Shown here: piece by piece, positions 1,721-16,620 of the stretch
Numbering within the stretch: position 1 is the stretch's first letter
Layout: each line of letters begins with the position of its first letter
NCBI RefSeq assembly: GCF_010645065.1
Contig: NZ_JAADZW010000010.1
Span: forward strand, 1 to 64,000
DNA from: Flavobacterium fluviatile
GTDB taxonomy: Bacteria > Bacteroidota > Bacteroidia > Flavobacteriales > Flavobacteriaceae
DNA length: 64,000 nucleotides
Direction of reading: 5' to 3'
Notes under the pieces: generated by a model
What the model saw: only the letters and a program-made list of their open reading frames with translations
The model's database searches: none
What the model was told of the DNA's origin: nothing
Made by a program: the position numbers and the translations under genes

Positions 1721-3025
1721 CTAAGAAATGCTGTTTTTTACTTTATGCCCGAATGCTCCGAAATAAAGAATAATCACGAAGCATACTAACGGAATTATAT
1801 AGCCAGCCTGAATATCATCATGTTTCATATCAATCAGGGTTCCCATTGCATAAGGAAGGATTGCTCCACCAACAATAGACATTACCAGCCATGAAGAACC
1901 CGTCTCTGTATTAGATTTTAAACCAACTAATCCTAAAGAGAAAATAGTTGGAAACATAATAGACATAAAGAATCCAATTCCGCCTAAAGCATAAATAACT
2001 ACAATTCCTGATCCGTAAATGGCTACTAAGCAAAGTAAAATATTTGCAACACAATAGATAGAAAGCAAAACATAATCTTTGACAAATTTCAAAAAGAAAG
2101 TTCCGCTAAATCGTCCTGCCATAAACAAGAAACCATAAATGCCAAGATAGTATGCTGCCGTTTTTTCATCTAATCCCGCTTCCTTTTGTGCTATTCGAAC
2201 AAAAAAACTAGTTACACAGACCTGTGCTCCTACATAAAAAAACTGCGCTACAACTGCCCAAGTTAAGTGGGAGAATTTCAAAACAGAGAAAAATCCAGGT
2301 TTAATTTCGTTTTCAGTTTGTTTAGATTTCATTGATGGCAAATGCATAAAGTAAAACATAATTGCTACTAAAACCAAGATGCTTCCTAAAACTATATAAG
2401 GTAATTTCACTGCCGAAGCCTCTTCTAATAAGTAAGCAGCTTTTGTCGCTTCTGGCATTGCAGCCATTTCTTCTGGAGTATGGTTGATTCCTGAAAGTAT
2501 AAAAATACCTCCCAAAACAGGACCTAACATAGCAGCTAAACCATTAAAGGATGCCGCCAAATTTAATCTAAATGATGAAGACTCTGGAGGGCCTAAAATA
2601 GCAGCATAAGGATTAGCACTGGTTTCTAAAATCGTTAATCCACAACCAATAACAAATAAAGCAAAAAGAAAAAGTTCATAAGTTCTGGTATTTGCTGCTG
2701 GTACAAAAAGAAATGCTCCTGTAGCAAAAACTAATAAACCGGTAATGATACTATTTTTATATCCTATTTTTTTTATAATCATACCCGCAGGAATTGCCAT
2801 TATAAAATAGGCGAAAAAGATGGCAGTGTCGATTAATGTTGATTGGCTGTTATTAAGCTGACAAGCTTTTTTTAAGTGTGGGATCAAAATGCCATCAAGC
2901 CCATGCGCCATTCCCCAAAGGAAAAATAAGCTGGTAATTAAAATGAAAGGTAAAAGATACTGATTTCCTTTTCCGCTTTCTGTTGGAACTTCGTGTTGGT
3001 CGCCCGTTTGGTTGGTTACTTGCAT
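1721..3025 (-). CDS. fucP: MFS sugar:H+ symporter, FucP-like
   Basis: This 434-residue polytopic inner-membrane protein has about 12 predicted transmembrane segments. The first half is typical of the L-fucose:H+ symporter FucP family: SLFFLWGMAHGLDGILIPHL, then AYFIMAIPAGMIIKKIGYK and LFVPAA. The FucP group transports L-fucose and, in relatives, other hexoses. The placement beside genes for a non-phosphorylative deoxyhexose pathway suggests the substrate is a 6-deoxyhexose (L-fucose or L-rhamnose) or its acid. The start at 3025 gives a hydrophilic N-terminus of about 24 residues, usual for the family. It lies 22 bases after the MaoC gene stop, so it is probably cotranscribed with it, and is followed by a strong terminator. 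The exact substrate is inference. Confidence 0.85.
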   Translation of the reverse strand: MQVTNQTGDQHEVPTESGKGNQYLLPFILITSLFFLWGMAHGLDGILIPHLKKACQLNNSQSTLIDTAIFFAYFIMAIPAGMIIKKIGYKNSIITGLLVFATGAFLFVPAANTRTYELFLFALFVIGCGLTILETSANPYAAILGPPESSSFRLNLAASFNGLAAMLGPVLGGIFILSGINHTPEEMAAMPEATKAAYLLEEASAVKLPYIVLGSILVLVAIMFYFMHLPSMKSKQTENEIKPGFFSVLKFSHLTWAVVAQFFYVGAQVCVTSFFVRIAQKEAGLDEKTAAYYLGIYGFLFMAGRFSGTFFLKFVKDYVLLSIYCVANILLCLVAIYGSGIVVIYALGGIGFFMSIMFPTIFSLGLVGLKSNTETGSSWLVMSIVGGAILPYAMGTLIDMKHDDIQAGYIIPLVCFVIILYFGAFGHKVKNSIS

Positions 3026-3047: not shown

Positions 3048-3488
3048 TTATTTCTTTTTTACTAGTAATAGGTGGTCACATACCAAAACCACTTCTCCTC
3101 GCTGGTTGATGATTTCTACGTGCTCTGTCACTGTTCCCATATCCGGTTTTTTGGCTTCTCCTTTTTCTGAAATGGTAATTTCCGAATGAATCGTGTCACC
3201 AATGTGAACCGGTTTTACAAAACGCATTCTGTCATATCCTTTTGAAAAAGCTTCCGGATTTATTTCAGATGCCGTCAGACCGATGCCAATGCTAAAAACC
3301 ATTGTTCCGTGGGCAATTCGTTGTCCAAATGGCTGTGTCTTGCACCATTCTTCATCCATGTGATGCGGGAAAAAATCACCCGTGTGTCCGGCATGAACTA
3401 CAAAATCAGTTTCTGTTATAGTTCTGCCTAATGTAACTCTTTTATCATTAAGTTGGTAATCTTCGAAAAATGTGGATTTGAAATACAT
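3048..3488 (-). CDS. MaoC-family (R)-hydratase/dehydratase
   Basis: This 146-residue protein has a single hot-dog fold domain of the MaoC/R-hydratase family, which adds or removes water across the C2-C3 bond of acyl-CoA thioesters. The active-site region reads [11 protein letters not shown] followed by the signature RIAHGTM, giving the expected Asp and His dyad. No signal peptide is present, so it is cytoplasmic. It lies at the 3' end of the operon that holds two CoA-transferases, which fits a CoA-thioester substrate; fatty-acid genes are absent nearby. I infer that it could dehydrate an aldonyl-CoA made by those transferases, but this is unproven. It is separated from the upstream Gfo/Idh/MocA gene by a 192-base spacer containing repeats, so cotranscription is likely but not certain. 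Confidence 0.85.
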
Positions 3489-3582
3489 GTTTTTTTAGTT
3501 TTTTAGTCCTTAGTGATTAGTCCTTAGTGATTAGCTAATTACTATGGACTAGCGACTAATTACTTTATTTATATAATTTTTT
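3489..3582. repeat. Short direct repeats in spacer
   Basis: The spacer carries repeated TTAGTGATTAG units (two copies of AGTCCTTAGTGATTAG). A related cluster of the same unit occurs at 33568-33612 after the GH78 gene. No gene is visible. Confidence 0.6.
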
Positions 3583-3668
3583 TGGGCGTTTTAACACGCT
3601 TTCCGCTGTATCTTTTTTGGCAGAAAAAGCCAAAAAAGGATGCCGCTTCAATCGTTAACGCGGGCAAT
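3583..3668 (-). repeat. Flavobacterial intergenic repeat, copy B (inverted)
   Basis: On the minus strand it reads GGATGCCGCTTC in complement to copy A at 178-285, with GAAGCGGCATCC and AAAGATACAGCGGAAAGC cores. It begins about 12 bases past the stop of the Gfo/Idh/MocA gene. An internal inverted repeat (TTTTTTGGC ... GCCAAAAAA) could form a hairpin. Confidence 0.7.
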
Positions 3669-3680
3669 CGTTGTTATAAG

Positions 3681-4739
3681 TCATTGAAGTGGAATTCCTC
3701 CTTTTTGATTACTGACGTAACAGGCTTCAACAACTTTCATCGTGTCAAGTACATCCTGAACACTTGCTAATAATTTGTCGTCAGAACCTTCTTTAAAACG
3801 CATTAAGTTAGACATGGTTCCAATGAAAGCTTCCGGAAACCAGGAACCTTCCAGCTTGATTTCTTCCCATTCGTAGTTACCGTCTTTTTCTAAAGCAACT
3901 TCAAATTCGTCCGGCATACCGTCAGGATAATTCATCAATAAGCCCATTTTGGCTTTGATTGCTCCTTTTGTTCCTTCCCATTTGATGTAGCTTTCTTCAT
4001 GTTTTGGACCAAAATGATGATCGTGATTGGTGTTAATAACCACTCGCATTGAATCGCCATAATCTAAAATAATTGAAGAACGGCAGGATGATAGTTTTTT
4101 CAAAGGATGATTAGTTGTTTTAGCATAAACTCCTGTTGGATTTCCCAAAAATGAACGAATGCAGTCAATATAATGCACGCTGTGAAAAAGTATTTCTAAT
4201 CTTGGGTGTTCCTTAATCAGAGGGAACAATTCCCAAGGTGTGTTTACTGTTACTTTAAATTCTAAATCATACAAATCACCTATGATTCCCTGATTGATCA
4301 TATAGCGTGCTGCACTAACAAAAGAGGCAAATCGCAACTGAAAATTAATGGCAGCAACCAATCTCTTTCTTTCGCAAACTGCTACGATTTCTGTGGCTTG
4401 TGCCAAATCATTCCCCATAGGCTTTTGAATCAGTACCGCAGCGCCATCTGGAAGTTGTTCCAATATTTCAATATACTGATCAGGTAAAACAGTGATGTCA
4501 TAAACGGCATTCGATGGCGCATTTTTTACTGCCTCGGCTACATTTTCAAAAACATTTGGAATACCAAATTGTTCTGCCATATCCTGTGCCTTTGAGAGTG
4601 TTCTGTTGGTAATACCAAAAACACTCATACCTGCCATTTTATAAGCCGGAAGATGGGCATCTTTTACAATACCGCTCGCGCCAATAATGATAATCGGCTG
4701 CGTTGTTTCTGGTAATAAGGGTTTATATGGAATATTCAT
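3681..4739 (-). CDS. Gfo/Idh/MocA-family NAD(P)-dependent oxidoreductase
   Basis: This 352-residue cytoplasmic protein has an N-terminal Rossmann domain (about residues 15-135, with IIIGASGIVKDAHLPAY as the nucleotide-binding loop) and the family's QKPMG motif near residue 105 in place of the usual EKP. The C-terminal half is the alpha/beta substrate domain. Family members oxidise or reduce sugars and sugar derivatives such as inositols, aldoses and uronates. It starts 2 bases after the stop of the solute-binding-protein-like gene, so it belongs to the same operon. The substrate is unknown; context suggests a sugar acid or deoxy sugar. It is not closely similar by eye to the other Gfo/Idh/MocA protein at 21605-22669. 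Confidence 0.85.
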   Translation of the reverse strand: MNIPYKPLLPETTQPIIIIGASGIVKDAHLPAYKMAGMSVFGITNRTLSKAQDMAEQFGIPNVFENVAEAVKNAPSNAVYDITVLPDQYIEILEQLPDGAAVLIQKPMGNDLAQATEIVAVCERKRLVAAINFQLRFASFVSAARYMINQGIIGDLYDLEFKVTVNTPWELFPLIKEHPRLEILFHSVHYIDCIRSFLGNPTGVYAKTTNHPLKKLSSCRSSIILDYGDSMRVVINTNHDHHFGPKHEESYIKWEGTKGAIKAKMGLLMNYPDGMPDEFEVALEKDGNYEWEEIKLEGSWFPEAFIGTMSNLMRFKEGSDDKLLASVQDVLDTMKVVEACYVSNQKGGIPLQ

Positions 4740-4741
4740 AA

Positions 4742-5965
4742 TTATATAATTTGCAGAATAGCATTCTGTGTTTCTTCTAATAATTCTTGAGATGGAATAT
4801 CACTTTCTAAGGCTTTTAAAACCATTTTGTCAATCAGTTCGGCCACTTTTGGCCAAACCGGAGTTTGTGGTAAGGTTAAAGCGTTCTCATGCAATGTTTC
4901 CAGTTTATGATAAAACGGAATGGTTTTATTGATTTCAACATCATTCCAGGTTGATTTTCTGCATCCGATTCCGCCTTCATTAGTTAGCAATTTATCGCTT
5001 TCAGGGTTTGTGGCAAATCGTAGAAAATCGTAAGCTAGTTTTTGGTGTTTACTTCCTGTGCCAATGGTATATAGCCAATACACATTCAATGAAGCCGTTT
5101 TATGGTTTTCATCATGTGGTAATTCCGTAATATCTACTTTTCCTTTTATTTTCGATTCTTCAATTACTTCACACATTGAGGCAAATCCAAACCAGTTGAT
5201 TGACATTGCCGCTTCACCTTTGGCGAAAGCCATACCGGCTTCAACAGAACCAAAATCTTTGGATTGCGGATGAAGGGCTTTTTTATTGCTGGCTATATTT
5301 CTGTAAAAATCCAAAGCTTCAATCGCTGCCTTTTGGTTAATATCAATTTGATTTTGGGAGTTCAATAAAGAACCGCCTCTTGTCCACAACTGCAGGCAGA
5401 AATCAAAAACCATGTTGTGTCCGTCAGGATAATGGGCAAAAACAGATCCGTATAAATTTTGATCAGGTCGATTGAAAAATTCAGCAATCTGAGTGAATTG
5501 TTCCCAGGTTTTTGGAGAATGCAATTCGTAATCAAATTGTTTTTTGAAATTTTCTTTTTCAATTGGGTCTTCAAATAAATCTTTCCTGAAAATCAAACAT
5601 TCCGGCCCATCATGGAAAGGAAGTCCATAAGTTCCGTTGTTAATTTGCTGTAAATGCAATAAAGACTTATGCCAGCCTTCAGGATAATTTTGAGGAGGAT
5701 TCTCGGCAATTAATGACGTCAAATCAAGAACCGCTTTTTCATTCGCAGCATCAAAAATCCAGTCGGTATTGATGTGTGCAATATCCCAGCTTCCGTTTAT
5801 TAAACCTTTATTGGTAATGGTTTCTTCATAAAGATCGTGCAGTTCCAGCGGAATCATTTCTGCTTCAATGGTAATGTTGTTTTTCAGGCAGAACAAATCC
5901 CACAGCTTTTGCAATGTACTTTCAAAAGGATCAAATTTCCGGACAGCGATTCTTAATTTTTCCAT
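4742..5965 (-). CDS. Solute-binding-protein-like protein without signal peptide (A)
   Basis: This 407-residue protein has the sequence character of family 1 extracellular solute-binding proteins: an N-terminal alpha/beta lobe (KLRIAVRKFDPFESTL), the central WDIAHINTDWIF and YGLPFHDGPECLIFRKDLF segments, then a second lobe with GSVEAGMAFAKGEAAMSINW. No signal peptide or lipobox precedes the fold; the first beta strand begins at residue 4. No ABC permease or ATPase gene is in the window. It therefore probably acts in the cytoplasm, as a sugar-acid binding protein or as an enzyme that reused the fold. Its ATG overlaps the stop of the upstream CoA-transferase gene by one base (TAATG), indicating translational coupling. 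A second such protein is encoded at 8253-9392. The function is unknown. Confidence 0.8.
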   Translation of the reverse strand: MEKLRIAVRKFDPFESTLQKLWDLFCLKNNITIEAEMIPLELHDLYEETITNKGLINGSWDIAHINTDWIFDAANEKAVLDLTSLIAENPPQNYPEGWHKSLLHLQQINNGTYGLPFHDGPECLIFRKDLFEDPIEKENFKKQFDYELHSPKTWEQFTQIAEFFNRPDQNLYGSVFAHYPDGHNMVFDFCLQLWTRGGSLLNSQNQIDINQKAAIEALDFYRNIASNKKALHPQSKDFGSVEAGMAFAKGEAAMSINWFGFASMCEVIEESKIKGKVDITELPHDENHKTASLNVYWLYTIGTGSKHQKLAYDFLRFATNPESDKLLTNEGGIGCRKSTWNDVEINKTIPFYHKLETLHENALTLPQTPVWPKVAELIDKMVLKALESDIPSQELLEETQNAILQII

Positions 5966-7101
5966 TAGGCTATAAATTCTTTAATGATTCGCTCGTTGTC
6001 CTGTCCTAATTTAGGAGAACCTTTACCTGATGTAAAAATTTCTCCGTCAATTCTAATAGGACATCGGGTTGTTTTATAATTGTAGCTGTCAGTCATTTCA
6101 ACACGCTGTGTAAAATTTAAAACCTGAAATCCTTCTTCAGCAAAAAGCTGTTTATAGTTTAGGACTTTGGCACACCAGATATCCGCCGGTTCCAAAATAT
6201 CCAGCCAATATTGGGTTTCCTGAGTTTGTAAATGTTCTGCTAAAATGTTTTTGATGTCATCCCTTAATTCGAATTTATTTTCAGGAAACTGAAGCAATTC
6301 ATCACATTTTAAAAGGGACGCCAAAACCGGAATTGATCCCATTGCTAAAGCCAGATAGCCATTTTTGGTTTTGTAAATTCCGTAAGGCGCACCCAGATAA
6401 GCGTGGGCATTATTGGATTTTGTTCGCACAGGCAGTTCACCGCCGTCGTTGAAATAAGTGGTAATCGTTTCAAACTGAAAATCAAAAGCAGATTCCAGCA
6501 TACTTACCTGAACTTTTGCTCCAATATTGTGAGTTGCTTTTCTATATAAAGCTGCTAAAATTCCTTGTGCCAAATGTGCTCCGGCCAGCATATCTACTAT
6601 TGATAATCCCATTGGTACCGGACCATCTTCCTGATTTCCGCTCAGCCATGTTAAGGCTGTCATAGATTGTAATAATAAATCCTGTCCCGGTAAATTTTTT
6701 AATTCGGATTTTGTACCGTAGCCCGAAATTTCTGCATAGATGATATTGGGATTGATTTCTTTGACCTGATCATAACTCAATCCAACGCGTTCCATTACTC
6801 CGGGTCTGAAATTATGCATAACGACATCGGCTTTTGCCAGTAATTTTTTTAATTTTTCCAGTTCATTTGCTTGTTTAAAATCGATTGCAAATGATTCTTT
6901 GTTTCTGTTGATGGTATGAAATACGGATGATTCTCCATTCATAATCAAATCAGATGTATATAAGGTTCTGCAGATATCGCCTGTTCCCGGTTTCTCAATT
7001 TTTATCACACGCGCACCCAGATCTGCCAATCGCAAACTCCCTGAAGGGCCTGAAAGAAACTGGCTAAAATCTACTATTAAATAATCTTCTAAGGGTTTCA
7101 T
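5965..7101 (-). CDS. Class III (CaiB/BaiF) CoA-transferase, second copy
   Basis: This 378-residue protein is a family III CoA-transferase, which moves CoA between carboxylic acids through an aspartyl-CoA anhydride. It shows the family N-terminus (LEDYLIVDFSQFLSGPSGSL), the segment GARVIKIEKPGTGD, the region NFRPGVMERVGLSYD and the Asp-containing stretch SIVDMLAGAHLAQGILAAL near residue 170, where the catalytic Asp is expected. It is clearly homologous along its length to the neighbouring protein at 7106-8248, so the pair arose by duplication and may form a heteromer or act on two substrates. Gaps to its operon neighbours are 4 bases upstream and a 1-base overlap downstream. The acid substrate is unknown; sugar-acid context makes an aldonate or keto-deoxy acid plausible. 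Confidence 0.88.
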   Translation of the reverse strand: MKPLEDYLIVDFSQFLSGPSGSLRLADLGARVIKIEKPGTGDICRTLYTSDLIMNGESSVFHTINRNKESFAIDFKQANELEKLKKLLAKADVVMHNFRPGVMERVGLSYDQVKEINPNIIYAEISGYGTKSELKNLPGQDLLLQSMTALTWLSGNQEDGPVPMGLSIVDMLAGAHLAQGILAALYRKATHNIGAKVQVSMLESAFDFQFETITTYFNDGGELPVRTKSNNAHAYLGAPYGIYKTKNGYLALAMGSIPVLASLLKCDELLQFPENKFELRDDIKNILAEHLQTQETQYWLDILEPADIWCAKVLNYKQLFAEEGFQVLNFTQRVEMTDSYNYKTTRCPIRIDGEIFTSGKGSPKLGQDNERIIKEFIA

Positions 7102-7105
7102 TCTG

Positions 7106-8248
7106 CTAGTTTAAAAATTGTTCGTGTATTGTTACATTATCTTCGCCAACTTTAGGCGCTGCTTTAGTACTGGTTAGAATTCTACCATCCAGCTGAATCG
7201 GGCTTCTTGTAGTAACCAAAGTTTCCCCTGCCGAATTTTGTACCGTTTGTTTCAACTCCAGTTCATTAACAAAAGGCTGGCTGTCCAATTCCTGGTAATT
7301 AAGTACTTTGCCACACCAGATTCCTTCTTTTTGAAGTAATTCAATCCAATAATCTGCTGTTTGAGTATTGAGTTTTTCAGTTAATATTGCTCTGATTTCA
7401 TCCCTTTGAGAAAACCATTTGCGTTTATCGCTGTATTTTTGGAAATCGATTTCTAAAACACTTCCAATAAAAAGCAAATCTCCCATTGCTAAGGAAATGT
7501 AACCATCCTGAGTTTGATACACTCCATAGGGTGCGCTTAGAAAAGCATGGGCACTTCCTTTAACATCACTTCTTTTTGGCTGTTGTCCGCCATCATTTAA
7601 ATAAGAAGTAATAGCTTCGAACTGCACATCCAATACCGATTCCAGTAAACTTACTTCAACTAAAACTCCTTTTCCGGTTTTGGCCCTTTTTAATAATGCT
7701 GCCAAGATTCCCTGAACGAAATGATTCCCACACATTAGATCGGCTACAGCCAGACCAAACGGAACAGGTCCCTGACTTTTTCTGCCACTAAGCCAGCTTA
7801 ATCCGGAAAGAGACTGGAGCAACAAATCCTGGCCTGGTTTGTTTGCCCAGGGGCCTTTGTCTCCGTAACCTGTGATGGTTCCGTAAATTATTTTTGGATT
7901 GATATTCAAAACATCATCGAATGTCAAACCAATTTTATCCATTACGCCAGGTCTGAAATTATGAGTCATAATATCTGCCTTGGCGATTAGTTTTTTGACT
8001 AAAATTAAATCTTCAGGATTTTTAAGATCGGCCGCAAATGATTCTTTATTTCTGTTGATGGTATGAAAAAGCAGACTGCTGTCGTCAACAAAAAGGTCTT
8101 TGATGCTTAATTGCCGGCAGGCTTCACCTTTTACAGGACGCTCGATTTTAATTACTCTCGCTCCTAAATCGGCCAGTTTCAATCCGGCAGAAGGGCCTGC
8201 CAAAAACTGACAAAACTCCAATACAACTAATCCTTCTAATGGTCTCAT
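7106..8248 (-). CDS. Class III (CaiB/BaiF) CoA-transferase, first copy
   Basis: This 380-residue protein is the paralogue of the protein at 5965-7101 and has the same domain organisation: LEGLVVLEFCQFLAGPSAGL, GARVIKIERPVKGE, NFRPGVMDKIGLTFD and LAVADLMCGNHFVQGILAAL, with the likely catalytic Asp in the last motif. It is soluble and cytoplasmic. It lies 4 bases after the solute-binding-protein-like gene at 8253-9392 and 4 bases before the second transferase, within the operon running left from the operator at 9414-9432. Known CaiB/BaiF enzymes act on carnitine, formyl/oxalate, bile acids, succinate/malate and similar acids; none is a sugar acid as far as I know, so this context is unusual. 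Confidence 0.88.
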   Translation of the reverse strand: MRPLEGLVVLEFCQFLAGPSAGLKLADLGARVIKIERPVKGEACRQLSIKDLFVDDSSLLFHTINRNKESFAADLKNPEDLILVKKLIAKADIMTHNFRPGVMDKIGLTFDDVLNINPKIIYGTITGYGDKGPWANKPGQDLLLQSLSGLSWLSGRKSQGPVPFGLAVADLMCGNHFVQGILAALLKRAKTGKGVLVEVSLLESVLDVQFEAITSYLNDGGQQPKRSDVKGSAHAFLSAPYGVYQTQDGYISLAMGDLLFIGSVLEIDFQKYSDKRKWFSQRDEIRAILTEKLNTQTADYWIELLQKEGIWCGKVLNYQELDSQPFVNELELKQTVQNSAGETLVTTRSPIQLDGRILTSTKAAPKVGEDNVTIHEQFLN

Positions 8249-8252
8249 GCAG

Positions 8253-9392
8253 TTATAAGTTTAAAGACTTGATGTAAAGTGCATTCATTGCAGATAAAGC
8301 AGCTTCTTCATCGCCTCCATTCATTAAATAATCACGTACGACATCGCCTGCATGATCCTGAAAATACATGTGTCCTGAATATCTTGGTCTTAAAAAGGCT
8401 CTTTCTAAAGCAGGCAATGTGTTTTTGAAATAATCATGAGTAATTCCGTTGATTCGGTCATTCTTCCATGCTTGTAAATGCCCAGGCTGTCCGCCGTTAT
8501 CTGAAAAAATATTTTGTTGTACCTGAGAAGATCCTGTGAATTCAGCATATTTTATCGCTTCCGGAATATACTGGCTGAAAGAAGAAACAGCTAAACCGGT
8601 TCCGCCCAGAGAACTAATCATCGGTTTGTCATTCAATTTTACCAAATCATAAAAATGAAGCAAGTTTTTGCTGTAACCACTTCTTGAATAATTGGAATAA
8701 CCGTAAGCAAAAGGGCAGTAGGCAATTTCATCCGAATTGACCATCGCTTCATATACCTGAATCGGATTTCGGTTAAAATTTGCAGGATCCATTAACTGAG
8801 CCAGTTCGCGATGCATCTGTAAAGCTTTTTTTCCTGTTTCTTCAGAAATTACTTTTTCCTGTGACTGGAAAGGCGCTTTACCTAAACTGCAACAAAAAGA
8901 ATAAAAAGTCATTAGTGAATCTACCGGAATTCCTGCAAAGGCAATTAATCCTTTTTTTGCTAAAGCCAATAAATCATCATATGTCTGCGGAACTTTTAAT
9001 CCCTGTTTTTCTAAAATATCTAACCTTGCTGCTGCTACCGGAGTGGCTGCATCTATTGGCAAAGCCCATAGTTTGTCGTGAAATACGTAACTCCCGTAAG
9101 ATTTACCAACGGTGTTGATTTCCTGATCTTTTATATATTCGGCAGAAAGATAATCTGATAAAGGCAGAATTGTTTTGGTATCTGCGCCAAATCCTGTCCA
9201 TGGATGGTCAATAACCAACAGATCAAATCTTTTTGCCAAGTCTTCAATCGAAGCATCTGCAAATTCCTGTAAACTTCTTTTTTCCCAACTGATTTCTATT
9301 TCCGGATTCAACTCTGTAAAACGCTGAGCTGTGGCAACCATTGGGAGTAAACCTCTGGTGTGATTCCACGTAATCCCTTTTAGTTTTTTCAT
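8253..9392 (-). CDS. Solute-binding-protein-like protein without signal peptide (B)
   Basis: This 379-residue protein is the first gene of the leftward operon. It looks like a family 1 solute-binding protein: LKGITWNHTRGLLPMVATAQ, RFTELNPEIEISW, FDLLVIDHPWTGFGAD, the hinge region and a C-terminal lobe with SSLGGTGLAVSSFSQYIPEA. The fold starts at residue 4 with no signal peptide and no lipobox Cys, so it should stay in the cytoplasm. The gene has no permease or ATPase partner here. It is only distantly similar to the 4742-5965 protein. It begins 22 bases downstream of the palindromic operator at 9414-9432, so it is probably the promoter-proximal gene. The role is unknown; a ligand-sensing or enzymatic function in sugar-acid catabolism is a guess. 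Confidence 0.8.
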   Translation of the reverse strand: MKKLKGITWNHTRGLLPMVATAQRFTELNPEIEISWEKRSLQEFADASIEDLAKRFDLLVIDHPWTGFGADTKTILPLSDYLSAEYIKDQEINTVGKSYGSYVFHDKLWALPIDAATPVAAARLDILEKQGLKVPQTYDDLLALAKKGLIAFAGIPVDSLMTFYSFCCSLGKAPFQSQEKVISEETGKKALQMHRELAQLMDPANFNRNPIQVYEAMVNSDEIAYCPFAYGYSNYSRSGYSKNLLHFYDLVKLNDKPMISSLGGTGLAVSSFSQYIPEAIKYAEFTGSSQVQQNIFSDNGGQPGHLQAWKNDRINGITHDYFKNTLPALERAFLRPRYSGHMYFQDHAGDVVRDYLMNGGDEEAALSAMNALYIKSLNL

Positions 9393-9413
9393 TTTTTAAT
9401 AATCTGATTTAAT

Positions 9414-9441
9414 AAATGTGATTTTCACATTTACAAATATA
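9414..9441 (-). promoter_or_regulatory. Promoter and palindromic operator of the leftward operon
   Basis: On the minus strand a Bacteroidota -7 box TATATTTG (complement of 9434-9441) is followed at once by the palindrome AAATGTGATTTTCACATTT at 9414-9432, two 8-base arms around a 3-base centre. The operator would cover the transcription start, fitting repression. The start codon at 9392 lies 22 bases further on. A matching inverted copy occurs at 9616-9634. Confidence 0.65.
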
Positions 9442-9606
9442 GAAATTAGATTCAAATGCTATGATTATATATTTAATTTTTGGCAAATTGGGTAAGTGTT
9501 TTTTATATTTTATACAAATTACGCATAAAATGTGATATTGCTTTTGATTATATCTGTTTTTAAGCATTGATAATTAAAATAAATGCCTGGTATTAATATT
9601 AAGTTT

Positions 9607-9634
9607 TATATTTGTAAATGTAAAAATCACATTT
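9607..9634 (+). promoter_or_regulatory. Promoter and palindromic operator of the rightward operon
   Basis: The -7 box TATATTTG lies at 9607-9614, followed by AAATGTAAAAATCACATTT at 9616-9634. The 27-base block from the -7 box to the end of the palindrome is identical, apart from one base, to the reverse complement of the block at 9414-9441. The promoter lies downstream of a possible ATG at 9583, so translation must begin at the later ATG at 9682, which is followed by a signal peptide. Confidence 0.65.
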
Positions 9635-9681
9635 ATTTTTACGCTTATTTACATAAAATACAATTTTTTAAAGTAGCGATT

Positions 9682-10869
9682 ATGCTTAAAACTTCTTTTC
9701 TTTCTAAAATTATTGTGTTGCTGATTTTGGTAACAACAATTTCAAATGCTCAAAACACAATTCCAACTAAGCTGAAATGGTCAGAAAGAATGGCTTTAAC
9801 ATTGATGCAGCGCCATTCGCAATCGTACATGCTTGATGATGCTAAAGTGGCTCATATTAGTTATGTTCATGGTTTGGTTACTTATGCTTTTCAGCAATTA
9901 GGCAAACAAAAAAATGATGAAAAATATACGGCTTATGCCAAACAATATGCTGATGAATTGATTGATGCCGATGGAAATATTAAAACGTATAAATTTGAAT
10001 CCTTTAATATCGATAATATTCCAACGGGCCGAATTTTGTTTGATATCTATGAAAAGACTAAAGACAAACGATATATAATTGCTATGCAGACTTTGCGTAA
10101 ACAATTAGAAGAGCAGCCTCGTACACCAAGCGGTGGTTTTTGGCACAAAAAAATATATCCTAACCAAATGTGGCTGGATGGTTTGTATATGGGTGAACCA
10201 TTTTATGCAGAATATACGGTTACGTTTGAAAACGGAGCTAAGTTAGATGATGTTGCTCATGAATTTGAATTGATTCAGCAAAAAGCAACAGATGCAAAAA
10301 CAGGATTGTTATACCATGCCTGGGATGAGAGTAAAGAAATGCCATGGGCAAACAAAGAAACCGGAGTTTCTCCTAATTTTTGGTCGCGGTCAATGGGCTG
10401 GTATGTGATGGGATTGGTAGATGTCCTGGATTATTTTCCTAAAGACCACCCAAAAAGAAAAGAACTGATTTTGTATTTAAACAATATTTCGAACGCCTTA
10501 GTGAAATTTCAGGATCCATCAGGTTTATGGTATCAGGTTACTGATATGGGAACCCGAGACGGGAATTACCTTGAAACTTCGGGTACGGCAATGTTCGCTT
10601 ATGCTTTTGCAAAGGGAGCAAAAAAAGGTTATTTGCCTAAAAAATTCAAAAAAATTGCTGAAAAGGCCTTTGACGGTATTACTTCAAAATTTACCAAAGT
10701 GTATCCAAACGGCGAAATTGAAATTACGAATGCCTGCGCTGTAGCAGGTTTGGGAGGGAAGCCTTATCGTGATGGCTCTTTCGAATATTATATTAATGAA
10801 AGAAGAAAGGATAATGACCCTAAAGTAACCGGACCTTTTATACTGGCGGCTTTAGAATTAAATAAATAA
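9682..10869 (+). CDS. GH105 unsaturated rhamnogalacturonyl hydrolase, exported
   Basis: This protein of about 395 residues belongs to the GH88/GH105 (YteR/YesR-like) family, which removes the unsaturated galacturonosyl residue left at the non-reducing end by pectin and rhamnogalacturonan lyases. The (alpha/alpha)6 barrel carries MWLDGLYMGEPFYAEY with the expected catalytic Asp, and HAWDES, SPNFWSRSMGWYVMGLVDVL and GSFEYYINE near the C-terminus. The start at 9682 is chosen because it opens a signal peptide (MLKTSFLSKIIVLLILVTT, cleavage after SNA) and lies downstream of the promoter; an earlier ATG at 9583 is upstream of the -7 box. Export to the periplasm is therefore likely. It is the first gene of the rightward catabolic operon, 17 bases before the SDR gene, and links lyase products to sugar catabolism. 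Confidence 0.9.
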   Translation: MLKTSFLSKIIVLLILVTTISNAQNTIPTKLKWSERMALTLMQRHSQSYMLDDAKVAHISYVHGLVTYAFQQLGKQKNDEKYTAYAKQYADELIDADGNIKTYKFESFNIDNIPTGRILFDIYEKTKDKRYIIAMQTLRKQLEEQPRTPSGGFWHKKIYPNQMWLDGLYMGEPFYAEYTVTFENGAKLDDVAHEFELIQQKATDAKTGLLYHAWDESKEMPWANKETGVSPNFWSRSMGWYVMGLVDVLDYFPKDHPKRKELILYLNNISNALVKFQDPSGLWYQVTDMGTRDGNYLETSGTAMFAYAFAKGAKKGYLPKKFKKIAEKAFDGITSKFTKVYPNGEIEITNACAVAGLGGKPYRDGSFEYYINERRKDNDPKVTGPFILAALELNK

Positions 10870-10886
10870 TGCTATAATTAAAAAAT

Positions 10887-11651
10887 ATGTTTTCATTACA
10901 AAATAAAAAAGCCGTCATAACCGGCGGAGGAAGCGGAATAGGAAGAGCTATTGCAACTCTGTTCGCAAAACAGGGAGCAGAAGTTCACATCATTGACTTA
11001 AGTATTGAAAGTGCTCGGGAGGCTGTAGCTGATATTCAGCAATTGGGCGGAAAAGTATTTTCATATGCGTGTAATGTAGTAGATCAACAAGAGGTTGTTG
11101 CTACGTTTGAAAAGATTGGAAATATCCATATTTTGATCAATAATGCCGGTATTGCTCATGTGGGCAAAGTAGATACAACTTTGGAAATCGATTTCCAAAG
11201 GGTAATGGATGTAAACGTAAAAGGAGTTTACAATTGTTTATATGCTGCAATTCCACAATTTAGATTATCTAAAGGAGGTGTTATTCTGAACATGGCTTCT
11301 ATAGCATCATGGGTAGGAATTCAGGATCGTTTTGCTTATTCGACTGCTAAAGGAGCTGTAATGGCAATGACTTTATCGGTAGCGAGAGATTATATAGATG
11401 AAGGAATTCGATGCAATTCAATTTCACCGGCAAGAGTTCATACTCCATTTGTTGACGGATTTATAAATAAAAATTATCCGGGTAAAGAAACCGAAATTTT
11501 CGAAAAACTATCTAAGTCACAACCAATAGGCCGTATGGGACAACCCGAAGAAATTGCTGCACTGGCTCTCTACTTATGCAGTGATGAAGCAGGGTTTATT
11601 ACCGGAAGTGATTATCCTATTGACGGAGGATTTATAAAATTAAATAATTAA
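10887..11651 (+). CDS. SDR oxidoreductase, likely 2-keto-3-deoxy-L-fuconate/rhamnonate 4-dehydrogenase
   Basis: This 254-residue classical short-chain dehydrogenase has the cofactor motif TGGGSGIG at residues 12-19, Asp37 after the second beta strand (favouring NAD), NNAG at 85-88 and the catalytic triad Ser138, Tyr151 and Lys155 (YSTAK). In non-phosphorylative L-fucose and L-rhamnose pathways an SDR of this type oxidises the 2-keto-3-deoxy acid at C4 to a 2,4-diketo acid, which a fumarylacetoacetase-family enzyme then cleaves; that hydrolase is encoded by the next gene. The gap to the next gene holds a repeat of about 75 bases. The SDR family is certain; the substrate is inferred from gene order. 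Confidence 0.8.
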   Translation: MFSLQNKKAVITGGGSGIGRAIATLFAKQGAEVHIIDLSIESAREAVADIQQLGGKVFSYACNVVDQQEVVATFEKIGNIHILINNAGIAHVGKVDTTLEIDFQRVMDVNVKGVYNCLYAAIPQFRLSKGGVILNMASIASWVGIQDRFAYSTAKGAVMAMTLSVARDYIDEGIRCNSISPARVHTPFVDGFINKNYPGKETEIFEKLSKSQPIGRMGQPEEIAALALYLCSDEAGFITGSDYPIDGGFIKLNN

Positions 11652-11659
11652 AAAAGAGA

Positions 11660-11734
11660 TACTAAGGTTCTGAGATACTAAGCTGCTAAGATTTTAGCCT
11701 TAGAACCTTAGAACCTCAAAATCTTAGAACCTTA
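11660..11734 (+). repeat. Intercistronic CTTAGAACCTT repeat hairpin
   Basis: The spacer contains CTAAGGTTCT (11662-11671) pairing with AGAACCTTAG (11702-11711), plus further CTTAGAACCTT units in direct orientation. It lies inside an operon and has no T tract, so it is a repeat or mRNA structure and not a clear terminator. Confidence 0.6.
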
Positions 11735-11748
11735 AAAAATAAAAGAAA

Positions 11749-12603
11749 ATGAAATTAATACGTTTTGGAGCAGCCGGACAAGAAAAACCGGGAGTTATAA
11801 TTGGAGAAAAAAGATATGACGTTTCTTCTATTGTAACGGATTTTAATGAAGCTTTTTTCGAAGACAATGGTTTAGAGAAATTAAAAAAAGCTTTAGAAAG
11901 TAATCCTGTTTTACCAGAAGTTAGTGCAGATGTACGTTTGGGGTCTCCGGTGGCAAGACCTTCAAAAATAATCTGTATTGGATTGAATTATGTGGATCAT
12001 TGTCATGAAACAGGTGCTCCGATTCCAACAGAGCCAATTATCTTTTTCAAGTCAACTACATCATTATGCGGACCAAATGATGACTTGGTTATTCCAAAAA
12101 ACAGTGAAAAAACGGATTGGGAAATCGAGCTGGCATTTGTAGTGGGCAAAAAAGCAAGTTATGTGGAAGAAGCAGAAGCTTTGGATTATGTTGCCGGATA
12201 CGCTTTATTGAATGATTACAGCGAAAGAGCTTTTCAAATCGAAATGGGCGGACAATGGGCAAAAGGTAAAGGCTGTGATACTTTCGCGCCTCTTGGGCCA
12301 TTTTTGGCTACTCAGGATGAAATCGCTGATGTGAATAATTTACCAATGTGGTTAACTGTTAATGGGAAGAAATTCCAAAACAGTAATACTTCAAATTTGG
12401 TTTTCAAAATTCCATTTTTGGTGCATTACCTAAGTCAGTTTATGACTTTGCTTCCTGGCGATATCATTAGTACAGGAACGCCTCCGGGAGTAGGATTGGG
12501 AATCAAGCCGGATCCAATCTATATCAAACCGGGCGATGTTATTGAATTAGGAATGGACGGTTTAGGTTCAAGTAAACAAGTAGCTAAAGCTTATTCTAAA
12601 TAA
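11749..12603 (+). CDS. FAH-family hydrolase, likely 2,4-diketo-3-deoxy-L-fuconate/rhamnonate hydrolase
   Basis: This 284-residue cytoplasmic protein belongs to the fumarylacetoacetate hydrolase family. It has the small N-terminal domain (residues 1-65) and the catalytic domain with CIGLNYVDHCHETG, the metal-binding DWEIELAFV, LLNDYSER, the conserved GKGCDTFAPLGP and LLPGDIISTGTPPGVG. In L-fucose and L-rhamnose non-phosphorylative pathways the equivalent enzyme hydrolyses a 2,4-diketo-3-deoxy acid to pyruvate and L-lactate. The flanking SDR and lactonase genes support that role. The gene ends two bases before the alcohol dehydrogenase ATG, indicating tight cotranslation. Family is secure and pathway role probable; specificity for fucose or rhamnose cannot be read from sequence by eye. 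Confidence 0.85.
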   Translation: MKLIRFGAAGQEKPGVIIGEKRYDVSSIVTDFNEAFFEDNGLEKLKKALESNPVLPEVSADVRLGSPVARPSKIICIGLNYVDHCHETGAPIPTEPIIFFKSTTSLCGPNDDLVIPKNSEKTDWEIELAFVVGKKASYVEEAEALDYVAGYALLNDYSERAFQIEMGGQWAKGKGCDTFAPLGPFLATQDEIADVNNLPMWLTVNGKKFQNSNTSNLVFKIPFLVHYLSQFMTLLPGDIISTGTPPGVGLGIKPDPIYIKPGDVIELGMDGLGSSKQVAKAYSK

Positions 12604-12604
12604 A

Positions 12605-13618
12605 ATGAAATATATTGTTTGTGAAAAACCGCAGGAGTTTCTAATTAAAGAAAAATCAATGCCGGAACCAAAAGAAGGAGAAGTACTTTTGAAAATTAGA
12701 AGAATAGGTGTCTGCGGAACCGATATTCACGCTTTTGGAGGAACACAGCCTTATTTTGAATACCCAAGAATTCTTGGGCATGAACTGGCTGCCGAATATA
12801 TAAAAGGAAATGCAAAAGGTTTCCAGCCGGGCGATAAAGTAACTTTTATACCTTATTTCAGCTGCGGCAACTGTGTAGCGTGTAGAAATGGTCTGACTAA
12901 CTGTTGTGCCAATATTAAAGTTTTCGGAGTACATATTGACGGAGGAATGGCCGAGTATGTTACAATTCCGGAACAATATTTATTGCAGGGACAAGGTTTG
13001 GATTATGATGAACTGGCGCTGGTTGAACCTTTGGCAATTGCAGCGCACGGAGTAAGAAGAGCCGCTGTAAAAGCAACCGATACCGTTTTGGTAATGGGTG
13101 CAGGACCTATTGGATTAGGATTGATTCAGTTTGCTAAAATTGCCGGAGCCAAAGTGATTGTGATGGATATCAACGAATATCGTCTTAACTTTTGTAAAGA
13201 AGCACTTCAGGCAGATGAAGTTATTAATCCGCTGCATGATGATGTGGCAGCAAAATTGGCGGAACTGACCAATGGCGATATGGCGAACGTAGTAATCGAT
13301 GCTACCGGAAACCAAAAAGTGATGAACAGTGCTTTTAATTACATTTCGCATGGCGGAAGATTTGTTTTGGTTGGACTTCAAAAAGGCGAATTGAGTTTCA
13401 GTCATCCTGATTTCCATAAAAGGGAATCTACTTTGATGAGCAGCCGAAACGCTACCATCGAAGATTTTGAATATGTGATGAAATGCCTGAAAGAAGGTAA
13501 AATCGATCCGAAAAAATATATCACACACAGAGCTGATTTTTCGGATATGATCGGCGAATTTGGAAAATGGATTGATCCAAAAAACAATACTATTAAAGCA
13601 ATTATAGAATTAAATTAA
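12605..13618 (+). CDS. Zinc-dependent medium-chain alcohol dehydrogenase
   Basis: This 337-residue cytoplasmic enzyme is a zinc medium-chain dehydrogenase of the threonine/sorbitol dehydrogenase type. Catalytic zinc ligands are visible at Cys37 (GVCGTDIH) and His59-Glu60 (GHE); structural zinc ligands are Cys87, Cys90, Cys93 and Cys101. The Rossmann motif is VMGAGPIGLG. Relatives oxidise polyols and aldonates, for example L-galactonate or L-gulonate 5-dehydrogenases. It lies two bases after the FAH gene and 20 bases before the second SDR gene, so it acts in the same pathway, but it has no fixed place in the textbook L-fucose or L-rhamnose routes. It may give a side entry for another sugar acid or replace a step. 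Confidence 0.85.
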   Translation: MKYIVCEKPQEFLIKEKSMPEPKEGEVLLKIRRIGVCGTDIHAFGGTQPYFEYPRILGHELAAEYIKGNAKGFQPGDKVTFIPYFSCGNCVACRNGLTNCCANIKVFGVHIDGGMAEYVTIPEQYLLQGQGLDYDELALVEPLAIAAHGVRRAAVKATDTVLVMGAGPIGLGLIQFAKIAGAKVIVMDINEYRLNFCKEALQADEVINPLHDDVAAKLAELTNGDMANVVIDATGNQKVMNSAFNYISHGGRFVLVGLQKGELSFSHPDFHKRESTLMSSRNATIEDFEYVMKCLKEGKIDPKKYITHRADFSDMIGEFGKWIDPKNNTIKAIIELN

Positions 13619-13637
13619 TTCTGAAAAACAGAATATT

Positions 13638-14435
13638 ATGGACTTACATTTAAAAGGTAAAATTGTAGTCGTATCAGGCTCAGCCGGAAAAGAAGGAAGT
13701 ATTGGGGAAACAATCATCAACAGATTGGCTGATGAAGGGGCAATTCCGGTTTTAGTTGACAGAAACAGCAGGGGTTTTGGCTATGCTGAAGCTTTGCAGA
13801 AAAAAGGAATCGATTCCTTGTTTGTTCAGACAGATGCTACAAATCCGGATGAAATGCAGAATGCTGTAAATAAAATTGCTGAAAAATACGGCAGAATAGA
13901 TGTTGTGATCAATAACGTAGGTGTAAATGATGGTGCCGGATTGGATGCTACTTACGAGGAATTTATGGATTCTTTGAAACTGAATGTAGTAAGTTACTTT
14001 TTATTGGTGAAATTTGCTCTTCCGTACTTAAAAGAATCAAAAGGAAATATTTTGAATATTGGTTCAAAAGTAGCTTTGACAGGGCAAGGCGGAACCTCAG
14101 GTTATGCTGCTGCAAAAGGCGGTGTTCTTGGACTTACGAGAGAATGGGCGGTTGATTTGATTCAGTACGGAATTCGTTCGAATGCTATAATTATTGCCGA
14201 ATGTTATACACCAGCCTACGAAGACTGGATTAAAACAGTACCGGATGGCGAAGCAGTTTTGAAAAAGATAAATAAGAGTATTCCGTTTGAGTCCAGAATG
14301 ACTAAAACAGAAGAAATTGCAGATACGACGCTTTTTATTATTTCAGATCGTTCTTCGCATACTACAGGACAGTTTGTTTTTGTAGAAGGGGGTTATGTGC
14401 ATTTGGATCGTGCTTTAATTAATGATGTAAATTAA
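13638..14435 (+). CDS. SDR oxidoreductase resembling L-fucose dehydrogenase
   Basis: This 265-residue short-chain dehydrogenase has a slightly expanded glycine loop (SGSAGKEGSIG, residues 13-23), Asp41 in the NAD-selecting position, NNVG at 92-95 and the triad Ser143, Tyr156 and Lys160 (YAAAK). The C-terminal segment SDRSSHTTGQFVFVEGGYVH followed by LDRAL is, from memory, characteristic of bacterial L-fucose dehydrogenases, which oxidise the sugar to its 1,5-lactone. The lactonase needed for the next step follows four bases downstream. It is clearly different from the SDR at 10887-11651, so the operon carries two different SDR steps. The role as deoxyhexose 1-dehydrogenase is a good inference but not proven. 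Confidence 0.75.
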   Translation: MDLHLKGKIVVVSGSAGKEGSIGETIINRLADEGAIPVLVDRNSRGFGYAEALQKKGIDSLFVQTDATNPDEMQNAVNKIAEKYGRIDVVINNVGVNDGAGLDATYEEFMDSLKLNVVSYFLLVKFALPYLKESKGNILNIGSKVALTGQGGTSGYAAAKGGVLGLTREWAVDLIQYGIRSNAIIIAECYTPAYEDWIKTVPDGEAVLKKINKSIPFESRMTKTEEIADTTLFIISDRSSHTTGQFVFVEGGYVHLDRALINDVN

Positions 14436-14439
14436 GGGT

Positions 14440-15273
14440 ATGAGCCGAATTGATTCTCATCAGCATTTTTGGATATTTGATCCGGTTAGGGATAGCTGGA
14501 TTGATGATTCCATGCAAAATATTCAAAGGGATTTTTTACCCGAAGATTTGTATCTATTGCTTTCCCAAAATCAATTTTCGGGATGCGTAGCGGTTCAGGC
14601 AAGTCAGTCTGAAGCAGAAACCGATTTTTTATTGGATCTTGCTTCAATAAATGATTTTATAAAAGGAGTCGTAGGCTGGGTTGATTTGAGAAGTGAAAAC
14701 ATTTCAGACCGATTAAGTCATTTTTCTCAATTTGAAAAGCTAAAAGGTTTCAGACATGTGGTTCAGGGAGAACCGGATGATTTCATGTTTGGTGAAGCAT
14801 TCCGTAACGGAATCAAAGCTTTAAAAGAATTTGACTTCACTTACGATATTCTGATTTTTCATCGTCAGCTGCCTGCTGCAATCGATTTGGTAAAAACGTT
14901 TCCTGAGCAAAATTTTGTGATTGATCATATTGCAAAACCTGATATTAAATCGAGCGACATTGCATCATGGAAAAAAGGAATTGAGGAAATTTCAAAATTC
15001 GAAAACGTATGGTGTAAAATATCCGGAATGGTGACAGAAGCCGATTGGAACAATTGGAAACCATCCGATTTAAAACCGTATCTGGATGTGATTTTTGAAA
15101 ACTTTTCTGCAGATAAATTGATGTTTGGCTCTGACTGGCCGGTTTGTAATGTGGCTTCAGATTATAGTAATTTAGTCAAAACTTTAGAAGATTATCTGGC
15201 TGCTTTCTCAGTTGAAGATCAGAATAAATTTTGGTTTAAAAATGTCAAATCATTCTATAAACTGAATGATTAG
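14440..15273 (+). CDS. Amidohydrolase-family lactonase (L-fucono/L-rhamnono-lactonase type)
   Basis: This 277-residue protein is an Amidohydrolase_2 family TIM barrel. It starts with the HxH metal motif (RIDSHQHFW, His7 and His9), and has DHIAKPDI, WCKISG and the conserved FGSDWPVCN near the C-terminus. Members of this group hydrolyse sugar lactones, including L-fucono-1,5-lactone and L-rhamnono-lactone. No signal peptide is present. It is the last gene of the rightward operon, four bases after the SDR gene, and is followed by a bidirectional terminator. The product should be a free aldonate, which then needs a dehydratase that is not encoded in the window. Confidence 0.85.
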   Translation: MSRIDSHQHFWIFDPVRDSWIDDSMQNIQRDFLPEDLYLLLSQNQFSGCVAVQASQSEAETDFLLDLASINDFIKGVVGWVDLRSENISDRLSHFSQFEKLKGFRHVVQGEPDDFMFGEAFRNGIKALKEFDFTYDILIFHRQLPAAIDLVKTFPEQNFVIDHIAKPDIKSSDIASWKKGIEEISKFENVWCKISGMVTEADWNNWKPSDLKPYLDVIFENFSADKLMFGSDWPVCNVASDYSNLVKTLEDYLAAFSVEDQNKFWFKNVKSFYKLND

Positions 15274-15296
15274 AAAGAATAAATATTTGAATATAT

Positions 15297-15332
15297 AAAA
15301 AAAGCGTGAATTTGAGATTTCACGCTTTTTTT
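15297..15332. terminator. Bidirectional terminator between convergent genes
   Basis: AAAAGCGTGAA pairs with TTCACGCTTTT around a short loop, with A and T runs on both sides. It serves the lactonase gene (plus strand) and the PL10 gene (minus strand). Confidence 0.85.
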
Positions 15333-15338
15333 ATGATT

Positions 15339-16547: not shown

Positions 16548-16563
16548 AGTTGTTTTTGATGTA

Positions 16564-16603
16564 CTTCAGTTGTGTTTAGTTTTAAATTTAGACACAACTG
16601 AAG
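16564..16603 (-). repeat. Intercistronic hairpin between GH28 and PL10 genes
   Basis: CTTCAGTTGTGT at 16564-16575 pairs with ACACAACTGAAG at 16592-16603. There is no T run on the minus strand, so it may be an mRNA-stabilising or attenuating structure and not a full terminator. Confidence 0.55.
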
Positions 16604-16620
16604 CCTAAAGGTTTAATCAG

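Follow-up and report, generated by a model that had tools for sequence, protein, structure and literature searches.

A 64,000-nt stretch of the Flavobacterium fluviatile genome (assembly GCF_010645065.1, contig NZ_JAADZW010000010.1, labelled C8, positions 1-64,000 of the forward strand), referred to here as the window, was found to carry two divergent operons, one encoding two class III coenzyme A (CoA)-transferases, two solute-binding-protein (SBP) folds and a MaoC-type hydratase, and the other encoding candidate enzymes for the oxidation of deoxyhexoses. There is good support for a CoA-dependent step in the breakdown of a deoxyhexonate: the operons share an operator, the catalytic residues of the CoA enzymes are conserved, an FAH-family hydrolase gene accompanies the CoA genes in 38 of 38 Flavobacterium genomes, and 19 of these 38 genomes have no recognised fuconate dehydratase. 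We further propose, tentatively and at somewhat less than an even chance, that the leftward operon encodes a conserved module for CoA-thioester chemistry linked to the breakdown of deoxyhexoses, which would act on a substrate poorly handled by ordinary fuconate dehydratases and feed the 2-keto-3-deoxy acid pool. No description of an SBP-CaiB-CaiB-SBP-Gfo-MaoC module was found in the titles and abstract openings of the open-licence papers listed by literature searches.

Two divergent operons with a common operator

The non-phosphorylative breakdown of L-fucose and L-rhamnose uses a dehydrogenase, a lactonase, a dehydratase, an LRA5-type short-chain dehydrogenase/reductase (SDR) and an LRA6-type FAH hydrolase. 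Family matches place candidates for four of these five enzyme types in the rightward operon; unlike that pathway, the window holds no dehydratase, and the operator is common to a CoA module and an LgoD-like dehydrogenase. The genes of the leftward operon, the operator copies and the genes of the rightward operon are as follows.

1721..3025, minus strand: FucP-type L-fucose:H+ symporter, 22 bp from the MaoC gene (TIGR00885, 359.9 bits, above the cut-off of 280.4)
3048..3488, minus strand: MaoC-type hydratase/dehydratase, PaaZ-like, 146 aa, free-standing (PF01575, 3.4e-21)
3681..4739, minus strand: Gfo/Idh/MocA oxidoreductase (PF01408, 9e-11)
4742..5965, minus strand: SBP2, second cytosolic SBP fold (PF01547, 1.6e-24)
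5965..7101, minus strand: CaiB2, class III CoA-transferase, old paralogue of CaiB1 (PF02515, 3e-91)
7106..8248, minus strand: CaiB1, class III CoA-transferase (PF02515, 1.6e-94)
8253..9392, minus strand: SBP1, cytosolic SBP fold, partner gene of CaiB1 (PF01547, 2e-10)
9414..9432, no strand: operator copy 1, leftward operon, perfect copy of the palindrome AAATGTGATTTTCACATTT (sequence match)
9616..9634, no strand: operator copy 2, rightward operon, one mismatch to AAATGTGATTTTCACATTT (sequence match)
9583..10869, plus strand: glycoside hydrolase (GH) 88/GH105-type unsaturated uronyl hydrolase, first gene of the rightward operon (PF07470, 2.2e-110)
10887..11651, plus strand: SDR, candidate 2-keto-3-deoxy-deoxyhexonate 4-dehydrogenase, LRA5-like, SDR_L5 (39-66% identity to SDRs of fucose loci)
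11749..12603, plus strand: FAH-family hydrolase, candidate 2,4-diketo-3-deoxy-deoxyhexonate hydrolase, LRA6-like (PF01557; NF053535)
12605..13618, plus strand: Zn-dehydrogenase resembling LgoD, the L-galactonate oxidoreductase of E. coli (identity 45% over 336 aa, versus 35% to RspB)
13638..14435, plus strand: L-fucose-dehydrogenase-family SDR (NF052481, 353.7 bits, above the cut-off of 300; nearest PDB entry 4gkb, 1.6e-71)
14440..15273, plus strand: amidohydrolase-fold protein, candidate lactonase (PF04909; PDB 4dlf, 1.7e-51)

By its family assignment, the SDR at 13638-14435 is the predicted sugar 1-dehydrogenase of the pathway. The LRA5-like SDR matches only general NCBIfam families, and the top NCBIfam match of the FAH hydrolase is 2,4-didehydro-3-deoxy-L-rhamnonate hydrolase (NF053535, 366.9 bits, under the cut-off of 500). 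The protein in structure 4dlf presumably has lactonase activity.

A preliminary description of the window, made from the sequence alone, had reported the two SDRs, lactonase and FAH hydrolase of one operon, the two CoA-transferases and MaoC protein of the other, an operator common to both, and the absence from the window of an enolase-superfamily or IlvD-type dehydratase gene. All of these were recovered, and whole-genome profile searches placed no enolase-superfamily, IlvD/EDD or UxaA-type gene on contig C8; the LgoD-like Zn-dehydrogenase and the two signal-less SBP genes had been left out of its scheme.

The 5.1-Mb genome contains no third AAATGTGATTTTCACATTT site with one mismatch or fewer; at up to two mismatches, sites were found at 5 places versus 3 for a control pattern. 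The GH88/GH105 open reading frame as listed starts upstream of the second operator copy. Its true start is probably an ATG near 9683, downstream of that copy, judging from the operator position and the shorter open reading frame of Flavobacterium salmonis.

Catalytic residues and intracellular SBP folds

Window queries from the minus strand were aligned without the initiator Met, and residue numbers in the alignments are thus one lower than in the full proteins. CaiB1 and CaiB2 (51% identical) match the PF02515 profile and carry an Asp, which we take to be the catalytic residue, at position 170 of CaiB1 (169 in the alignment), invariant in 13 of 13 CaiB sequences. The nearest PDB entry to CaiB1 is 9br6, a succinate-hydroxymethylglutarate CoA-transferase. 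In the MaoC protein, D38 and H43 (D37 and H42 in the alignment) were invariant in 12 of 12 sequences and form an Asp-His dyad five residues apart, presumably with the catalytic role that it has in hydratase 2. The nearest solved structure is 4ffu (E 2.8e-63), PaaZ (6jql) matches at 5e-16, and the best NCBIfam family is PaaZ (82.4 bits, far under the full-length cut-off of 562.8), although the oxepin-CoA hydrolase of PaaZ is a domain and the window protein is free-standing.

Both SBP proteins adopt a two-lobed SBP fold in AlphaFold2 models searched with Foldseek: SBP1 (pLDDT 95.6) is MalE-like or SmoF-like, with TM-scores up to 0.85, and SBP2 (pLDDT 93.5) is MalE-like. An N-terminal hydrophobic segment is missing in 72 of 74 members of the SBP1 family, the other two being probably over-long reading frames, and occurs in none of the 39 SBP2 members. 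Export of these proteins as binding proteins of ABC transporters was ruled out by the missing signal segment, and no permease or ATPase partner was seen among the neighbouring genes scored or read. The SBP-fold protein beside each CoA-transferase probably binds the sugar acid.

A known enzyme pair offers a partial parallel. The mesaconyl-CoA hydratase of the methylaspartate cycle is a MaoC protein. Succinyl-CoA:mesaconate CoA-transferase and mesaconyl-CoA hydratase are named as steps of that cycle in PMC5592240. The window resembles this pair in combining a class III CoA-transferase with a hydratase, and the transferase family NF041294 matches CaiB2 (163 bits) and CaiB1 (162 bits); it differs in that both scores fall below the NF041294 cut-off of 700, in its sugar context, and in having two transferases and two SBPs.

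Co-occurrence in Flavobacterium

The genus was surveyed in 249 Flavobacterium genomes, with the FAH gene counted at E 1e-60 or better. Of these genomes, 64 had FAH and 38 the module; FAH was present in every one of the 38 module genomes versus 26 of the 211 others (p ~5e-28, a value that ignores kinship), and FAH lay within 20 kb of the module in 27 of the 38. Close FucD orthologues were found in 4 genomes, and 2 further homologues showed 41-42% identity. Fucose-type UxaA, counted at 75% identity or above together with the G246 fragments and the G025 copy that adjoins FAH, occurred in 37 of the 64 FAH genomes. A UxaA-superfamily L-fuconate/D-arabinonate dehydratase is mentioned in PMC6336799, and other Flavobacterium fucose operons resemble that system in that a UxaA paralogue adjoins SDR_L5 and FAH or lies in their vicinity. 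A recognised fuconate dehydratase, either FucD or fucose-type UxaA, was seen in 19 of the 38 module genomes versus 21 of the 26 FAH genomes without the module (one-sided p 0.012, likewise ignoring kinship).

Profile searches were run in chosen genomes (22 for UxaA-type, 24 for enolase-superfamily and 25 for IlvD/EDD genes). Ten of the 19 module genomes without FucD or fucose-type UxaA (G138, G142, G155, G225, G248, G264, G276, G307, G308 and G312) have only three enolase-superfamily matches, which by length and profile position are an epimerase, MenC and enolase, together with one IlvD and one galacturonate-type UxaA. All 19 carry the presumed galacturonate-type UxaA (52-54% identity to the fucose type), and all 22 genomes examined have a UxaA-type gene of some kind. 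The survey agrees with a dehydration step carried out by the module; the galacturonate UxaA might do double duty.

Five FAH genomes have neither the module nor a recognised dehydratase; a second IlvD-type gene was found in G137, G157 and G202 and an extra enolase-superfamily gene in G202 and G247, and the enolase-superfamily and IlvD profile searches gave nothing extra in G290. The sole FAH gene of the module genomes G006 and G008 at E 1e-60 adjoins fucose-type UxaA, as expected if the module and dehydratase routes meet at one intermediate. G003 and G181 have fucose-type UxaA and no FAH match.

The module in other phyla

At least 585 relatives exist, of which the best 80 were kept; among these, the module was found in Bacteroidota, Pseudomonadota, Planctomycetes, Verrucomicrobia, Acidobacteria, Bacillota and a Trueperaceae bin. 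The list of phyla is therefore a lower bound, and the loci are those nearest the query. With the window and five congeneric loci they form a set of 86, some of them cut short, in which homologues of CaiB were counted in 81 loci, SBP1 in 74, Gfo in 61, MaoC in 60 and SBP2 in 39. In Bacteroidota the most frequent gene order is SBP1-CaiB1-CaiB2-SBP2-Gfo-MaoC-FucP. Deoxyhexose context at module loci includes FucP, RhaT, GH78, GH106, alpha-L-fucosidase and mutarotase. In a tree of 123 CaiB rows, built by a quick method after rows outside 350-450 aa and five G-loci had been dropped, the CaiB2-type rows formed one supported set of 72 (one of them labelled CaiB1). This set also contains the single-transferase alphaproteobacteria, apart from L068, an outlier on a very long branch; CaiB1-type rows fell outside it.

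Over 81 loci (the 86 less the five Flavobacterium loci L029-L033), a crotonase gene occurs without MaoC in 9 (L064, L065, L067, L070, L072, L077, L079, L081 and L084), MaoC alone in 55 and neither in 17, and the two never occur together. A ferulate-type CoA pathway was rejected for the crotonase variant, no feruloyl-CoA hydratase being among the 25 of 57 NCBIfam families listed for it.

Proposed pathway

The window also encodes GH106, a GH78-like enzyme, a pectic acid lyase, GH28 and a GH141 protein with an L-rhamnose mutarotase domain, and by these family assignments is a rhamnogalacturonan-type locus. The candidate monomers are therefore, from the composition of rhamnogalacturonan II, L-rhamnose, L-fucose, 2-O-methyl-L-fucose, L-galactose and apiose. 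A deoxyhexose of pectin would be oxidised to its lactone by the L-fucose-dehydrogenase-type SDR or the Gfo/Idh enzyme, and the lactonase would open the ring. Loading of the deoxyhexonate onto CoA would fall to the class III CoA-transferases, with a cytosolic SBP-fold protein as the partner of each, after which MaoC would eliminate the 3-hydroxyl and/or hydrolyse the resulting enol (ether) to give a 2-keto-3-deoxy acid; in PaaZ, the MaoC domain acts on oxepin-CoA, whose enol ether it hydrolyses. From the 2-keto-3-deoxy acid, the SDR and FAH hydrolase encoded at 10887-12603 would yield pyruvate and lactate. An RraA-type aldolase, found beside the module in 4 loci, is a plausible alternative exit.

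The substrate is probably a second epimer, L-rhamnonate, or a 2-O-methyl-deoxyhexonate such as 2-O-methyl-L-fuconate. In the latter case MaoC-type elimination would produce an enol ether, which PaaZ-type chemistry would hydrolyse. GH141 enzymes are active on rhamnogalacturonan II; the link to 2-O-methyl-fucose stays a suggestion, a GH141 homologue lying near the module in only 6 of the 86 loci. We infer the substrate, the order of steps, the role of the SBP folds and the CoA chemistry from gene content, the operator, conservation, catalytic residues and co-occurrence.

A wider form of this proposal is that several phyla break down deoxyhexonates, possibly 2-O-methylated, as CoA thioesters, with SBP folds delivering the substrate to the CoA-transferases, a PaaZ-like MaoC both eliminating the 3-hydroxyl and hydrolysing the enol ether, methylated and unmethylated sugars meeting at one 2-keto-3-deoxy intermediate, and the crotonase variant performing a retro-aldol split of the CoA thioester ahead of an aldehyde dehydrogenase; taken as a whole it is speculative, and we think it rather unlikely that every part of it holds. 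To our knowledge, sugar acids lose water in their free form, through the action of enolase-superfamily, IlvD or UxaA enzymes. If correct, a CoA-thioester route would follow a different chemical logic of sugar breakdown, would explain deoxyhexose use by pectin and algal degraders that have no FucD, and would give intracellular solute-binding proteins a role as partners of CoA-transferases. The CoA-transferase, SBP and MaoC parts look soluble, and the close MaoC relative in 4ffu has a crystal structure.

Observations against the proposal and alternative explanations

Several observations weigh against a CoA module serving deoxyhexose breakdown. The operator is kept in some relatives only: both copies are present in F. 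salmonis L036, the nearest named relative of the window genome among the loci kept (CaiB1 identity 94%), looser pairs with three mismatches in L029, L031 and L186, one site at up to three mismatches in L106, and none in L030, L037, L038 and L051. Nine of the 19 module genomes without a recognised dehydratase have either a second IlvD-type gene or an extra enolase-superfamily match, the latter being weak in G175 and G297, and G247 has the rightward operon (without the GH88/GH105 gene) and FucP but no CoA module. An FAH homologue was found in only 5 of 73 non-Flavobacterium loci, some of which are cut short; in a search of 49 module genomes (two of them Flavobacterium) at E 1e-30, 12 had no FAH match and 5 more only one below 50% identity. 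That the module always travels with fucose genes is ruled out by these 12 genomes and by Pedobacter and most marine loci, which have no adjoining SDR_L5 and FAH. The crotonase loci may run another pathway, since all of them are without Gfo and 8 of 9 have an aldehyde dehydrogenase.

The LgoD-like Zn-dehydrogenase of the rightward operon opens a second fate for the acid, a possible bypass into the galacturonate pathway, which counts against the module replacing a dehydratase, and with it comes an explanation in which no dehydratase is missing. Tagaturonate is the product of L-galactonate oxidation by LgoD. The Zn-dehydrogenase, SDR and lactonase would form a route from L-galactose (or L-fucose) to a tagaturonate-type product and on into UxaB and UxaA, FucD or a UxaA elsewhere would serve the SDR and FAH enzymes, and the CoA module would act on an unrelated acid. 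In keeping with this are the 45% identity to LgoD, whose operon in E. coli is a different one, and the UxaA-type genes in all 22 genomes examined; in G006 and G008 (loci L031 and L029), moreover, the trio adjoins the module while SDR_L5 and FAH are absent there. Unlike the other Flavobacterium UxaA fucose operons, the window's genome has a single UxaA-type gene, on contig C104 (53% identity to the fucose type), adjoining a UxaB-like gene that is cut by the locus end and was assigned by reading its sequence; this pair could use tagaturonate from the LgoD-like enzyme. Such a route leaves unexplained the FAH gene in every module genome and the private operator shared by the two operons, and we consider it unlikely.

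The preliminary description had proposed that L-fuconyl-CoA or L-rhamnonyl-CoA is made by the module and loses its 3-hydroxyl to MaoC, the module simply replacing the absent aldonate dehydratase. The 19 module genomes without a recognised fuconate dehydratase, the ten of them without further candidates in the families searched, and the higher share of recognised dehydratases in FAH genomes without the module all speak for this strict form. Against it, contig C24 of the window's genome carries another fucose operon, which includes an L-fuconate dehydratase (FucD), so that a whole genome without this enzyme is ruled out. The C24 operon encodes counterparts of the window's SDR (66% identity), FAH hydrolase (62%), lactonase (47%) and L-fucose dehydrogenase (52%, 418.9 bits), together with FucP and an LldD-like L-lactate dehydrogenase; a short gene adjoining it reads as mutarotase-like. 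Given FucD and the LgoD-like route to UxaB and UxaA, there is no strict lack of a dehydratase for every possible substrate of the operon. Co-regulation of a nearby dehydratase was not seen: FucD lies on another contig, and the 20-kb C24 locus (L007) has no operator site at up to three mismatches, which rules out an operator common to the FucD operon.

Rhizobia likewise carry FucD and module genes together. In Sinorhizobium meliloti pSymB, MaoC and Gfo stand in one run with FucD, FAH, SDR, mutarotase, an enolase-superfamily gene and an ABC transporter, adjoining an IclR regulator, with CaiB-SBP ~20 kb from this run; Shinella and Martelella have CaiB-SBP, Gfo, MaoC and L-fuconate dehydratase within ~13 to 14 kb, and the alphaproteobacterial assemblies L078, L082 and L102 have both module and FucD. 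Because both coexist, the CoA genes add to FucD in these lineages and do not substitute for it, which weighs against simple replacement. As the galacturonate-type UxaA of all 19 genomes might serve, and two transferases and two SBPs exceed the needs of a dehydratase, simple replacement appears quite improbable. The CoA-dependent step of the preliminary description thus stands on the operator, the residues and the genus survey; these do not establish the replacement of an L-fuconate or L-rhamnonate dehydratase, in view of FucD on C24, the LgoD-like enzyme, the rhizobia and G247.

In three loci the module stands beside OiaX-like and OiaK-like genes, which point to apionate-type acids and so also count against a deoxyhexonate substrate. 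L101 has a RuBisCO-like OiaX-like gene, an SBD_N/NBD_C kinase gene that is OiaK-like and an Asp/Glu racemase gene (14348-17672; 513.6 and 406 bits, both below the cut-off of 700); by clustering, OiaX-like and OiaK-like genes of L050 come straight after the module and its FucP, with an Asp/Glu racemase gene also beside the module (8050-11395), and L109 has OiaX-like and OiaK-like genes, bit scores being available for L101 only. That the module acts on a branched apionate-type acid, from the D-apiose of rhamnogalacturonan II, is nevertheless very unlikely, as only 3 of 81 loci show this arrangement and the rhizobial and Persicobacter loci are fucose/rhamnose-like.

Other genes and sequence features

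Elsewhere in the window's genome, locus L008 (contig C29, locus positions 8809-14002) holds RhaT-like transporter, enolase-superfamily, aldehyde dehydrogenase, DgoK-like and DgoA-like genes, the families other than the enolase superfamily being read from sequence. In G177 and G247 (loci L249 and L250), SDR, SMP30-like lactonase, enolase-superfamily and RraA-like genes lie in one run, possibly a complete aldonate route ending in an RraA aldolase, with the non-enolase families again read by eye. The 192-bp gap between the MaoC and Gfo genes of the window contains a perfect 14-nt tandem direct repeat, TTAGTCCTTAGTGA, at 3503-3530. At 18917-21430, the GH141-family protein with its C-terminal L-rhamnose mutarotase (rhaM) domain is followed by a Gfo/Idh gene and an SSS transporter gene, and in L053 homologues of the GH141/rhaM, Gfo/Idh and SSS transporter genes lie directly upstream of the CoA module.

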